Shown here in pieces: positions 1 to 5,060 of a stretch of 5,060 bases of DNA (positions are counted from its first letter, which is position 1; every line of letters begins with the position of its first letter). The DNA is from a bacterium (GTDB lineage: Bacteria > Blakebacterota > Blakebacteria > Blakebacterales > Blakebacteraceae). Under the pieces are notes generated by a model. That model did no database searches. It saw only the letters and a list, made by a program, of their open reading frames with translations, and was not told where the DNA came from. Both the position numbers and the translations under genes were made by a program. The DNA is taken from assembly GCA_025774205.1 (NCBI GenBank), contig JALGWK010000436.1, forward strand, positions 1 to 5,060, read 5' to 3'.

Positions 1-2063
1 ACCACCAGCGGTTGGCTGAATTCCCGGTCGCCGACCTTCATCCTCACGGTATAGGTGCCCGGTTCGGCCAGGGGAGTGACACGTCCGCCTTCGCCGAGTG
101 GACGCCAGTCACGCTCACCGAAGTCGACATGTCCGTACCTGAGGGGCGGCAGCCTCAGTTTCGGAGTGGCTGAACCCTCCAGCCTGAGGTCCCACCAGAC
201 CCGGTTGATGCCGGCCCCGGCTGAGCCGGGAACCGTGAGCTTCCGAACGGTGTCGCCCGCGGCGTCGACGATGACCATCTCCACCCGGTTCTCAGAATCC
301 TCTTTCAGCCAGAAGTCGATCGACGCGCCGTAGCGGGGGTTTGAACCGGCGCCTGAATCCTCTGCCTGGCTCTGCGAGCCTGCCGTCATCAGGAACCGGT
401 AAGCCTGACGGGGAGCAAACAGCCAGGCGTCCTCCCGCAGGACGTCGTCGTCGAGCTGCTGGAGCGCGGTGATGTCATCCATGATCCAGAACCCGCGACC
501 GTAGGTGGATATCACCAGGTCGTTGAAGTGCTCCGGGATGGTGATCCAGTGGACCGGGGCGTGTGGCAGGTTGCTCTGCAGTTCGTGCCAGGCGCCGCCG
601 TCGTCGAAGGAGACATAGACCGCGTTCTCGGTACCCAGATAGAGGAGACCGGGACGGACCGGGTCCTCGCGGACGCAGTGAGCGTAACTGAATACGCTCG
701 TGGGAATCCCGTCGCCGATCGACCGCCAGCGCCGACCATAGTTCGTGGTCTTGTAGACATAGGGATTGGTGTCGTTCATCTGGTGCCGATCGACCGTGAT
801 ATAGCAGGTTCCGGCCTCGTACCGGGAGGGTTCGATATTGCTGATCGTGCCCCACTCCGGCAGGTCAGGGATGTTCCCGGTCACGTCGGTCCAGGCGGCG
901 CCTCCATCCTGTGTCACGTGGACCAGTCCATCGTTGGAGCCTGCCCAGATCACCCCTTCCGCCAGTGGAGATTCGGCGATGGCGAAGAGAACGCAGGCGT
1001 AGGTGGGGCTGGCATCCTCGAAGGTGAGCCCCCCGCTTTTCTGCATCCGGCTCTCATCATTGAGGGTCAGGTCGGGACTGATCACCGACCAGCTCTGACC
1101 GCCGTCGGTGGTCACGTGAACGTACTGGCTGCCGGCGTATACCCGCTCGTGGTCATGAGGCGAGATGGCGACAGGAAAGGTCCACTGGAACCGGTACCTG
1201 AGGTCGGCCGCCGCCCACCCCTCCGGGTTGTCGGGCCAGACACTGACGGTCCGGCTGTGCCCGGTGCGCAGATCATGGCGGTCGAGGATGCCCTCGTAGC
1301 ACCCTGACCAGATGATGTTCGGGTCGACCGGATCGGGGATCGCCCAGCCCGATTCGCACCCTCCCACCGAGTGCCAGGCCCCGATCGGGATGTCGCCCCC
1401 GGTCAGGGAATTGCTCGGTCCCCGGTTGGAGCCGCCATCCTGGCGGTTGCCCATCACGAAGTAGGGCACATTGGTATCGGTCGTGACATGGTACATCTGG
1501 GCGATCGGCAGACGGGGACGCCACCAGCTCTCTCCGCGCGTGGTTGAGATGCTCACTCCGCCGTCATGCCCGACGATCATCCGGTCGGGTATCAGGGGAT
1601 CGATCCACATGTCGTGGTTGTCCCCCCCGGCGCTGCCCGACTCGGTCGTGAAACCTCCGTCGTAGGAGATCCGGTGGCGGGTCGACATGAAGTGGATGGT
1701 ATTGCGATCGTCGGGCGCGACCAGGGCCCGGTTGTAGTAGCAGGGCCGCTGGGAGAGGGAGTGGTCCTTGTTGACCATCTGCCAACTGTCGCCGCCGTCG
1801 TCGGACCTCCAGAGTACTCCCTGGAAACGGTCGTAGGGCGCGAATTCTTCGTTGCTGCTGGTCTCGATGAGGGCATAGATCCGGTCGGGATCATCGGGTG
1901 AGATGGTGAGTCCGACTTTCCCCCACGGTTCCCGCGGCAGCCCGCTGCCGGTGAGTTCCGTCCAGGTGTCGCCGCCATCCCTCGACATCCAGAGGCCGCT
2001 CCCCGGCCCCCCGCTCTCCCGACCCCAGGTCCAGATCTGCATCTGCCACATACCGGCGAAGAG
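1..2063 (-). CDS. Secreted BNR/Asp-box beta-propeller protein, continuation after the frameshift; C-terminus off window
   Basis: This is 687 uninterrupted codons in the frame that follows the break, open to the left edge, which I checked codon by codon. It starts LFAGMWQMQIWTWGRESGGP and carries more Asp-boxes: SRDGGDTW (1962-1985), SDDGGDSW (1782-1805), STTRGESW (1524-1547), TTDGGQSW (1089-1112), TQDGGAAW (891-914), TTNYGRRW (726-749) and SFDDGGAW (588-611). Family blocks include GGDNHDMWIDP and RMIVGHDGG (about 1560-1630), AISPHDHERVYAGSQYVHVT (about 1107-1170) and VISTYGRGFWIMDD (about 474-516). After the propellers comes an Ig/FlgD-like C-terminal part: NPRYGASIDFWLKED, INRVWWDLRLEGSATPK and EPGTYTVRMKVGDREFSQPLV at the edge. 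The first in-frame ATG is 2049-2051 with no clear ribosome site, so this is better read as the rest of the upstream gene than as a separate gene. No signal peptide of its own. Confidence 0.85.
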
Positions 2064-2395
2064 TCACCTCCGTCGGTCGTCCGGTAGACCCCCCGTTCCT
2101 GCTGGGGGCCGTAGCAGCTGCCCATGGCGGCGGCGTAAACCAGGTCGGGATCATCGGGATGAATGATGATGCGGCCGATCCGACCGGTCATTTCCAGCCC
2201 CATGTGTTCCCAGTTCTCCCCGGCGTCGGTAGACCGATAGATGCCGTTGCCGATGGAGACGTTGCTGCGGATGAAGGTCTCACCCGTACCGGCCCAGACC
2301 ACGTTCGGATCGGAGGGAGCGATGGCCAGCGCGCCGATCGAGGCGGCCGGTTGATCATCGAAGATCGGGGTCCAGTGGATCCCGCCGTCCACCGA
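588..2395 (-). repeat. Series of BNR/Asp-box repeats (S/T-x-D-x-G-x-x-W) in the propeller protein
   Basis: Nine eight-residue Asp-boxes are visible: 2372-2395 (SVDGGIHW), 2210-2233 (STDAGENW), 1962-1985, 1782-1805, 1524-1547, 1089-1112, 891-914, 726-749 and 588-611. A tenth is cut after TTDGG at the frameshift (2066-2080). Each marks a beta-hairpin between propeller strands. STTRGESW, TTNYGRRW and SFDDGGAW are degenerate. On the plus strand the DGG codons give recurrent gccgcc(a/g)tc strings, which are coding repeats rather than a DNA element. Confidence 0.8.
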
Positions 2396-2665
2396 CTTGA
2401 AGACACCACCAGAGGCGGCCCCGAAATAGTAGATGTTCGGGTCTCCGGGAATGCCGGTCACCGCGCTGACCCGGTTGCCCACCGGGCCGATATGGCGCCA
2501 GGTCAAGGCCTCGAACATGACCGGGGACAGGTCATCCGGGCTCTGCGCCGCAATCTCCGGGGGCGGGTACATACCCAGGGTGACGATCAGCAGGCAAAGG
2601 AGCAGGAATCGGAATCGCGGACGATACGCCGCGGCGATGCTTTCAACTGGCATGGTCATCTCCAT
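1592..2665 (-). CDS. Secreted BNR/Asp-box beta-propeller protein (sortilin-Vps10-like), N-terminal part; frameshifted after residue 200
   Basis: This is the N-terminal part of an exported multi-bladed propeller protein of the type often labelled WD40/YVTN/BNR-like or, misleadingly, glycosyl hydrolase. Numbered from the first ATG, residues 15-40 form a signal peptide. Residues 41-200 are family-like: WRHIGPVGNRVSAVTGIPGDP (about 56-76), YYFGAASGGVFKSVDGGIHW (79-98), FDDQPAASIGALAIAPSDPNVVWAGTGE (102-129), GNGIYRSTDAGENW (139-152), GRIGRIIIHPDDPDLVYAAAMG (161-182) and ERGVYRTTDGG (190-200). After Gly200 (codon 2066-2068) the peptide becomes Gly/Ser/Pro/Arg-rich with no propeller motifs up to the stop at 1592. 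Those 157 residues are out-of-frame reading. The genuine protein continues in another frame from 2063 downwards. No enzymatic residues are recognisable; a binding or scaffold role outside the cytoplasm is the reasonable inference. It follows the peptidase gene by 80 bases. Confidence 0.85.
   Translation of the reverse strand: MEMTMPVESIAAAYRPRFRFLLLCLLIVTLGMYPPPEIAAQSPDDLSPVMFEALTWRHIGPVGNRVSAVTGIPGDPNIYYFGAASGGVFKSVDGGIHWTPIFDDQPAASIGALAIAPSDPNVVWAGTGETFIRSNVSIGNGIYRSTDAGENWEHMGLEMTGRIGRIIIHPDDPDLVYAAAMGSCYGPQQERGVYRTTDGGDSSPVCGRCRSGPGVGRAGGRGAASGCRGMAATPGRNSPAAGCRGNRGGKSDSPSHPMIPTGSMPSSRPAATKNSRPTTVSREYSGGPTTAATVGRWSTRTTPSPSGPATTTGPWSRPTIAIPSTSCRPATGSPTTEVSRPSRAAPGGTTTTCGSIP
2061..2068 (-). 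other. Frameshift and deletion junction inside the BNR propeller gene
   Basis: On the minus strand the Asp-box TTDGG ends with the GGT codon at 2066-2068. After just two more bases the next family block, LFAGMWQMQIWTWG, begins with CTC at 2061-2063 in a different frame. In that second frame a TGA (2064-2066) lies immediately before the CTC, so the downstream frame cannot extend upstream. In relatives about 27 residues (the end of the Asp-box, a VLYVDE.TG-type strand and a DLVMDP.NP-type turn) separate DGG from LFA. That implies about 79 bases lost, which agrees with the observed one-base shift. The break is seen directly; the size is inferred. Confidence 0.8.
2546..2665 (-). other. Signal peptide of the BNR propeller protein
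   Basis: Residues 1-40 of the BNR gene have an N-region with three arginines (YRPRFRF), a hydrophobic core FLLLCLLIVTLGMY (20-33) and a short polar stretch PPPEIAA-Q. Small residues at the end suggest signal peptidase I cleavage after the second Ala (residue 40). The Cys in LLLC does not fit a good lipobox because the -1 and -3 residues are bulky. Export to the periplasm or outside the cell is therefore likely. Confidence 0.75.
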
Positions 2666-2669
2666 CCTC
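2660..2669 (-). promoter_or_regulatory. Overlapping Shine-Dalgarno motifs that decide the BNR gene start
   Basis: The minus strand reads GAGG-ATG-GAG-ATG-ACC-ATG across 2651-2669. GAGG (2666-2669) abuts the first ATG (2663-2665) with no spacer, so it cannot serve that codon well. It sits six bases before the second ATG (2657-2659). GGAG (2660-2663) in turn sits six bases before the third ATG (2651-2653). The true start is therefore probably the second or third Met, trimming two or four residues from the longest frame. The signal peptide is unaffected by the choice. Confidence 0.55.
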
Positions 2670-2745
2670 AGAGAGAGAGGTCCACCCGGAAGCCGGCAGG
2701 GACTTTCGGGAAACAGGGGGAAAACGGGATGCCGGAGATCAGTGA
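2666..2745 (-). other. 80-base spacer between the S9 peptidase and BNR genes
   Basis: This is the only intergenic DNA in the window. I find no convincing -35/-10 pair on the minus strand and no GC hairpin followed by a T-run. The only inverted repeat is a weak CCGGC/GCCGG pair about 35 bases apart. There is also a short imperfect direct repeat (GGGAAACAGG and GGGAAAACGG on the plus strand, about 2708-2727) and a CT-rich tract (CTCTCTCTC on the minus strand) just before the ribosome-binding region. The lack of signals favours read-through transcription from the peptidase into the BNR gene. Confidence 0.5.
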
Positions 2746-3699
2746 TCAGTTCGGCGGCACCAGTCCCTTTTCAAGGAAGGGCACCCCGTCGGTCATCCAG
2801 GCCGGGGCGTAGATCCCCTTCAGATAGTGATCAAAGAACTGTTTCATACGGATCTGGAAGTCAATCTGGTTCTCTTTCCGACCGAGATGATGTCCTTCAC
2901 CGGGGTAGGAGAGGAAGATCACTTTCTTCCCCTGCCTTCTGGCCATGTTGTAGTACTCGAGCCCCTGCATCCAGTCGACCGAACCATCCTCGATACCGTG
3001 CAGGATGAGGAATGGAGTGGTGATGTTACCGGTGTGGTGGATCGGCGACTGGCTGAGATAGAGATCGAAGTCCTCGAAGGGAGTGGTTCCCATGCGTACC
3101 TGGCCGACCTCCATGATCCCCTGCTGCACCGTTCCTGAACTTTTGTAAAGCGTGTTGTAGAAGGAGACCAGGTTGGTCGGCGGAGCGCCGGTCACCACCG
3201 CCGCGAACAGGTCGGTCTGGGTGACCATGAATGAGGACTGGTAACCGCCCCATGAGTGCCCCTGCAGGCCGATATGGTCGGGATCGGCGTAGCCCATCTC
3301 GATCACCTTTCGCACCGCGCTGCCCACGCAGTCCATGGCCGAGTCACCCGGGTGCCCCTCCACGTAGACGATATCGGGCTGAAGAACCAGGTAACCGTCG
3401 CTGGCATATTCCGACATGTGCGGCCGGTCATCATAGGTGGGCATCGAGTAGCTGTGGTGCTGCTGGGACATCTTCTCGTAGTGATAGACCAGCATCGGGT
3501 AGCGCTGCCCCTCCCGGTATCCGGCCGGCAGGGTCAGTGTTGCCTGGAGATGGACTCCGCGGGAGTTATCGAAATCGACGAGGATCCGGCGGCCCCACCG
3601 GTACTCCGCCTGCTGCGGATTGGCGTCTGTCATCTGCCGTTGATTCGAGAAATCGAGTCCGCTCACCCAGTAATCGGGGAACTGCTCGAAGGTCTGCAT
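2746..3699 (-). CDS. S9 family peptidase, C-terminal alpha/beta-hydrolase catalytic domain (detached from its propeller by a frameshift)
   Basis: This is the catalytic part of the same peptidase, 317 residues if read from the ATG at 3697-3699. That ATG is probably an internal Met: the in-frame codons just upstream (DDRIIYT, 3700-3720) are also family-like, and no Shine-Dalgarno sequence precedes it. Visible blocks are FPDYWVSGLDF (7-17), DANPQQAEYRWG (25-36), LTLPAGYREGQRYPMLVYHYEKMS (about 55-78), YDDRPHMSEYASDGYLVLQPDIVY (about 89-112) and VIEMGYADPDHIGLQGHSWGG (about 132-152). The triad reads as Ser149 in GHSWGG (codon 3253-3255), Asp238 in HGIEDGSVDW (2986-2988) and His270 or His271 in YPGEGHHLG (2887-2892). 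The C-terminus FQIRMKQFFDHYLKG...WMTDGVPFL is typical and complete, ending in TGA at 2746-2748. All catalytic residues are intact, so the lesion is upstream of an otherwise undamaged enzyme domain. Whether the fragment is translated or folds alone cannot be told. The spacer to the downstream BNR gene is 80 bases. Confidence 0.9.
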   Translation of the reverse strand: MQTFEQFPDYWVSGLDFSNQRQMTDANPQQAEYRWGRRILVDFDNSRGVHLQATLTLPAGYREGQRYPMLVYHYEKMSQQHHSYSMPTYDDRPHMSEYASDGYLVLQPDIVYVEGHPGDSAMDCVGSAVRKVIEMGYADPDHIGLQGHSWGGYQSSFMVTQTDLFAAVVTGAPPTNLVSFYNTLYKSSGTVQQGIMEVGQVRMGTTPFEDFDLYLSQSPIHHTGNITTPFLILHGIEDGSVDWMQGLEYYNMARRQGKKVIFLSYPGEGHHLGRKENQIDFQIRMKQFFDHYLKGIYAPAWMTDGVPFLEKGLVPPN

Positions 3700-5060
3700 G
3701 GTGTAGATGATCCGGTCATCGGTTCCGAGATGTCGATCGTCTCTGCCTCCCGGTCAAGGCGGACATAGCGGAACCGGATCTGGTCCCGCTCTCCCATCCC
3801 GCCGGTGAGGTTGACGGCTTCACCCCCCTGCAGCGGCAGGGCCCAGATGTCGAAGCGGTGGTTCAGCAGCACCATCCGACCGTTCTCCGACCAGCCGGCC
3901 ACGCCGTAGGCCGGCAGTTCGTAAGGGTGATCGTCCTGCCGGTTCACGAAATCGATCCCGGAGAGATTGGTCAGGTCTGTCTCCACGCCCGTTTCGATGT
4001 TCCGGACCCGCACATGCTCATCCTTCAGGTAGAGGTACCAGTTCCCGTCGGGGGAAGTGCCCATGGCCCGGCCCAGGTTCTCGACCATCAACCTCTGTTC
4101 ACCCGTGGCGGTGTCGATCCGGTAGTAATCGGCCTTGCTACCGCCCCAGGTGATCATGCCCTCATACGGCTTCTCATTCCGGCCGATCCCCCAGCGACCG
4201 TCATCGGTAAAGGTCACCGAACGGATGTCCCCCTCGGCAAGCCTCAGGAACCGGGGGCCATCGACGTGGACCACCGCAGCCCAGGTGAAATTGCGGTCGC
4301 GACTCGCCTGCCGCATCTGGACCGACTGCACCCGGACGTCCGCCCAGTGCCACACGTCCACATCGGCCTGCGGATCGTCACTCTCCGGCGGGGTCTCCCG
4401 CTGCTCCTTCACGCCGGTGAAGAGCATCGTGCTCCCCTCGTTCCAGCGGAGTCCCGCCAGTTCGCTGAGGACCATCCCCTCGGGAAAGGAGCCATCCGTA
4501 TTCGGGTCGTACACGACCGCCTGTTCCCGGCGCCCGCCGATCGCGGTCCAGGCCAGCAGGACATTCTGGCGACGATCCATGCTATCAGGTTTCGAACCCC
4601 GAAGGACCGCCAGGGCGGTCCCCTCTTCATCCCAGGTGAGTCGGGCGTAACGATCCCCGCTCGTGTCGAGCGGCCGCAGGGTGCCCTGCCCAAAATCCCT
4701 CAGGTAAACGCCGTTGCCCGTCCCGCCGTCCGCGTCCACGGAATAGGCCAGCATCGAGACCGGCTCGTTGAAGGCATACTCGGCCACATTCCCGATGTTC
4801 TGCGCCACGCTGGTGGAGAGGTCGATCACGATGAGGTCAGCGCCGCTGTGGTCGGCACCGTTGGCCACCTGCCGTTTCCGCACCATGAAGTACCTGCCGT
4901 CATCGGAGAAACCCGATCCTCCGATGTCCTCGTAGACAGTCTCATCGCCGGTCGCCAGTTCGAGGAGCTTCACCTTGCGGGTGGATCCGCCTGAGGCTCC
5001 CTCGTCGCCACCCGGCCCGCGTCGCCCGCCGCCCCCGCCTCCATTACGCGGCGGAGAGAT
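3663..5060 (-). CDS. S9 family (prolyl oligopeptidase-type) peptidase, beta-propeller part; N-terminus off window, frameshifted at its 3' end
   Basis: This is the propeller half of a dipeptidyl/acylaminoacyl-peptidase-like serine peptidase, which is expected to gate access of peptides to the catalytic domain. The frame is open to the right edge. A GTG at 4971-4973 is internal, because the 29 in-frame codons upstream (a Gly/Arg-rich stretch) continue the same protein and the family normally has well over 100 further residues before this point. Visible family blocks, numbered from that GTG, are FSDDGRYFMVRKR (22-34), GADLIVIDL (44-52), RLTWDEEGTALAVLRG (111-126), DVDVWHWAD (204-212), MGTSPDGNWYLYLKD (304-318), DDHPYE (347-352), YGVAGWSENGRMVLLNHRFDIW (about 356-377) and RDQIRFRYVRLDREAE (396-411). 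The family-like sequence stops at ISEPM (414-419). The last 17 residues are out of frame, and the stop at 3663 is an artefact of that shift. The rest of the protein continues in another frame from 3720 downwards. The family call is secure; the substrate is unknown. Confidence 0.88.
   Translation of the reverse strand: MSPPRNGGGGGGRRGPGGDEGASGGSTRKVKLLELATGDETVYEDIGGSGFSDDGRYFMVRKRQVANGADHSGADLIVIDLSTSVAQNIGNVAEYAFNEPVSMLAYSVDADGGTGNGVYLRDFGQGTLRPLDTSGDRYARLTWDEEGTALAVLRGSKPDSMDRRQNVLLAWTAIGGRREQAVVYDPNTDGSFPEGMVLSELAGLRWNEGSTMLFTGVKEQRETPPESDDPQADVDVWHWADVRVQSVQMRQASRDRNFTWAAVVHVDGPRFLRLAEGDIRSVTFTDDGRWGIGRNEKPYEGMITWGGSKADYYRIDTATGEQRLMVENLGRAMGTSPDGNWYLYLKDEHVRVRNIETGVETDLTNLSGIDFVNRQDDHPYELPAYGVAGWSENGRMVLLNHRFDIWALPLQGGEAVNLTGGMGERDQIRFRYVRLDREAETIDISEPMTGSSTPCRPSSSSPITG
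3712..3723 (-). other. Frameshift and deletion junction inside the S9 peptidase gene
   Basis: Reading the minus strand, ISEP ends with the Pro codon at 3720-3722, in the frame that is open from the window edge. The family sequence resumes as DDRIIYTMQTF, in the frame whose Arg codon is 3712-3714. Only five bases lie between the Pro and Arg codons. From my memory of the family, about 40-45 residues (an ...LLLSA.GEWTKKSGFY...-type segment linking propeller and hydrolase) normally sit here, so roughly 120-135 bases appear to be lost, with a net loss of one base modulo three. The frame change is seen directly. The size of the missing segment is inferred from remembered homologues. Confidence 0.8.
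4974..5060 (-). other. Gly/Arg-rich low-complexity linker in the S9 peptidase
   Basis: The 29 codons before the internal GTG read ISPPRN, then a run of six Gly, RRGPGGDEGASGGS and TRK, leading into KLLELATGDETVY. Glycine makes up roughly half of the stretch. It is in frame with the propeller and has no stop, so it is protein and not an upstream untranslated region. In relatives a variable Gly-rich insert often occurs just before the first propeller blades. It is probably a disordered surface loop. Confidence 0.7.

Follow-up and report, generated by a model that had tools for sequence, protein, structure and literature searches.

The two minus-strand genes of the 5,060-nucleotide window, each of which looks broken by the loss of a single block of bases, are very probably sound genes in the organism, and both losses are best read as an artefact of assembly and not as biology. 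On sequence comparison, a probability of about 0.96 is placed on this reading, given that the same fault breaks indispensable genes elsewhere in the assembly; two sound genes would look broken because one faulty join falls in each. The window is the entire contig C274 of a draft genome (G000; 527 contigs, 3.09 Mb, 86% complete), which is probably a metagenome bin, and it was compared with a relative of the same genus (G001) and another of the same family (G003). An Rfam search of the window gave no match.

Gene 1 (positions 1-2665, minus strand), which continues past the contig end, codes for a beta-propeller protein of the Sortilin/VPS10-BNR type. Its downstream piece (1-2051) is open for 683 aa to the contig end and matches PF15902 above the Pfam cut-off (E 1.4e-13; 50.9 bits, with the threshold at 33), with homologues at most 70% identical across the full piece, and its upstream piece (2063-2665) holds the start of the same protein and its initial 201 aa. 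At the junction (2060-2063), where the coding strand reads GGTGAC to the left of the break and TCTTCGCC to the right, 79 bases are missing relative to intact homologues: the spacing from the block ending at window residue 201 to the block starting at the downstream ATG is 90 bases in nearly all intact homologues and 11 in the window, and most of 111 protein pairs give the same loss of 79. Gene 2 (from 2746 to past 5060, minus strand) encodes an S9 prolyl-oligopeptidase-type protein, whose downstream piece (2746-3715) carries the S9 peptidase catalytic domain (PF00326, E 3.7e-26; 92.4 bits, with the threshold at 22.6) and contains an ORF of 317 aa counted from the first ATG (2746-3699). The upstream piece (3718-5060), the N-terminal part, is open for about 448 aa to the contig end and has no Pfam match when searched by itself; it is assigned to the same gene because of its homology to G001 and G003. 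The DNA identity of gene 2 to G001 is 84-86% (84% for the downstream piece), and relative to both G001 and G003 the junction (3716-3718) lacks 127 bases, with CCGAT joined to GACCGG and a slide of 2 bases. The missing 127-base block was sought elsewhere in the bin and is absent, the flanks alone being matched. As a separate observation, two contigs of G001 (C163 and C260) both start within gene 2, and their opening ~110 bases align in both cases to one 110-base stretch of the window (3961-4070), so that the G001 assembly is also cut there, with overlapping contig ends.

The first-pass annotation had described this pattern correctly: one block is lost per gene, both losses (79 and 127 bases) are 1 mod 3 and thus of the same frame class, the four remaining pieces of 201, 683, 448 and 317 aa are all open, and scattered stops and single-base indels are lacking in the window. 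A long-standing pseudogene would look different. Ongoing decay of genes in a reducing genome would account for many broken genes genome-wide, but the window is free of such scattered damage and the pieces of gene 2 retain a dN/dS of 0.09-0.15 against G001, so nothing suggests older decay of this gene. Given also that universal essential genes are affected and that the same-genus relative shows almost no such breaks, decay is scarcely credible as the cause. The agreement in phase, which had been offered as a sign of common cause, was rejected as such: a frame-changing loss has two possible phases only, so a match is unremarkable, and ten frame-changing losses fall 7/10 in 1 mod 3 and 3/10 in 2 mod 3.

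The second proposed sign of common cause was the tetramer TGAC on the coding strand (GTCA on the forward strand), which does lie at 2063-2066 and 3715-3718 and which raised the possibility of recent deletion between short repeats in the living population. The two copies differ in origin: in gene 1 the tetramer lies to the left of the break, where it spans the third position of a Gly codon and a whole Asp codon, and in gene 2 it is created by the join, its T being contributed by the left flank and its C by the right one. The suggestion that the match might be chance is in keeping with its frequency: TGAC occurs in 6-8% of stretches of 12-16 bases of this strand and two random stretches of that length have some 4-mer in common 31-54% of the time, so that a 4-mer common to both junctions is unremarkable; at junctions outside the window, TGAC or GTCA was found in 0 of the 8 examined. 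Deletion by microhomology is favoured by the 2-base slide at gene 2, by a slide of about 2 bases that the gene 1 junction would allow if the lost residue was encoded by TCx, and by the fresh appearance of what remains of gene 2. Nevertheless, such deletions are very improbable here for three reasons: first, in the relatives the lost blocks are not bounded by TGAC on both sides, the outcome that had been named in advance as fatal to the idea, and for gene 1 the bases preceding the right end of the block in the relatives are not TGAC. Second, when nine junctions are set against G001 they slide by 0, 0, 0, 0, 0, 1, 1, 1 and 2 bases, as far as a relative of about 80% identity can show, so the search for a repeat common to both ends of the lost segments returned 0-2 bases at these nine, with five having none. 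Third, the same lesions occur in valS, secA, rpoB and dnaE, and their presence in essential genes refutes real deletion for the genome-wide class.

Runs of N sit at two other frame breaks of G000, 23 N at L174:12730-12752 and 7 N at L181:504-510, a sign that the contigs were built by scaffolding. At a break in contig C327, 17 bases are repeated exactly, head to tail in tandem, as would be left by an unmerged overlap. The two junctions of the window carry no N run. Taken together, the anatomy of the junctions argues for putative blunt joins.

The spread of the lesions was assessed in a sample of G000 (42 contigs, 327 kb), some of whose contigs had been picked for matching the window genes and none for being broken. 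A frame scan of these 42 contigs found many frame changes that gene overlap does not account for, against far fewer in G001; given that genes in operons overlap, this reference-free scan is noisy, and the counts therefore rest on protein comparison. With neutral, independent protein probes, about 8 distinct break sites, the two of the window included, were found in 56 kb of G000, whereas the same comparison of G001 gave 2 weak breaks, each from a single pair, in 95 kb. Blunt losses of 20-127 bases thus recur in G000 and are nearly absent from G001. They include two in contig C186 (92 and 83 bases) and two in contig C338 (25 and 31 bases), all relative to G001, and one of 40 bases in contig C327 relative to homologues. 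Independently of these counts, contig C243 of G001 shows an apparent tandem duplication of ~86 bases (~5924-6094) that G000 does not have and that may be an unmerged overlap in the G001 assembly.

The most decisive comparison is that of seven long universal genes (rpoB, rpoC, valS, secA, dnaE, alaS and gyrA), of which 4/7 are damaged in G000 as against 0/7 in G001. In G000, rpoB has lost 63 bases in frame, which takes out most of an invariant stretch, and the frame is changed in valS (106 bases lost), secA (20 bases) and dnaE (31 bases, among them those encoding the catalytic motif PDIDIDF); rpoC, alaS and gyrA are whole. The lost stretches of rpoB and dnaE are known to be indispensable to RNA polymerase and DNA polymerase III, respectively, and given the damage to rpoB, valS, secA and dnaE, a cell with the genome as assembled could not live. 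No second copy of valS, secA or rpoB was found in the bin. The bin does hold a second, divergent dnaE-like protein (G000:C174:3959-7201, an open frame of 1450 aa), which may be either another polymerase or a contaminant, and one dnaE was found in G001; dnaE by itself is for this reason inconclusive, and the arguments from valS, secA and rpoB are unaffected. In the family-level relative, the rpoC gene (G003:C318:1135-5085) matches profile positions 909-993 twice, with a TAG in the second stretch, possibly through duplication at an assembly join. It could be supposed that the lesions of the essential genes are artefacts and those of the window are real, in which case two genes would have been independently inactivated in the strain, but very little probability is given to this combination.

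Of the causes that the first-pass annotation had offered, a common cause through a fault of assembly is thus strongly supported by the same lesions across the draft genome, essential genes included; microhomology-mediated deletion is not supported, and the collapse of strain variants, named there as the example of such a fault, is not specifically so. Lesions in essential genes and their spread through the genome are as expected of local assembly errors or scaffold joins, and N runs and an unmerged overlap at similar sites point to scaffolding in particular. Very probably, at many joins in the draft genome, true intervening sequence of about 20-130 bases was left out between adjacent blocks and the block ends were butted together with no Ns, and two such joins lie within the 5-kb contig, one per gene. 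Gap estimates that were too short, absent or negative would yield block losses, N runs and duplicated overlap alike. We infer that the step responsible would be scaffolding or the joining of gaps whose length was underestimated, in preference to other steps of the assembler. If variants of co-existing strains had been collapsed when the consensus was built, with no missed scaffold gaps, block losses in random genes would likewise result. This scenario is unlikely, given that frame-breaking blocks in rpoB, valS or secA are not a difference to be expected between strains, so that collapse alone fails to account for the loss of what all strains need, and that the N runs at other breaks and the unmerged 17-base overlap point to joins; joins over misjudged scaffold gaps fit better, and collapse has no specific support.

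If the losses are faults of joining, reports of pseudogenes, lost genes or frameshifts based on this draft genome would be unreliable, since 4/7 of the long universal genes tested lack blocks. The same signs offer a quick test for such a fault in other bins: frame breaks by block loss with no other decay, together with a check of rpoB, valS and secA.

The losses resemble microhomology-mediated deletion in that each gene loses a single block and is otherwise little damaged, and they differ from it in that the block ends have no common repeat and indispensable genes are affected. Draft genomes have been described with local assembly errors, among them N joins in which the overlap is duplicated (Chen et al. 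2020, PMC7111523), and the present case is like those metagenome-assembled genomes in its short local faults, its incomplete or incorrect genes and its joins marked by N runs or duplicated overlap. It differs from them in that most joins here have no Ns and 20-127 bases are missing, as known from sequence alone.
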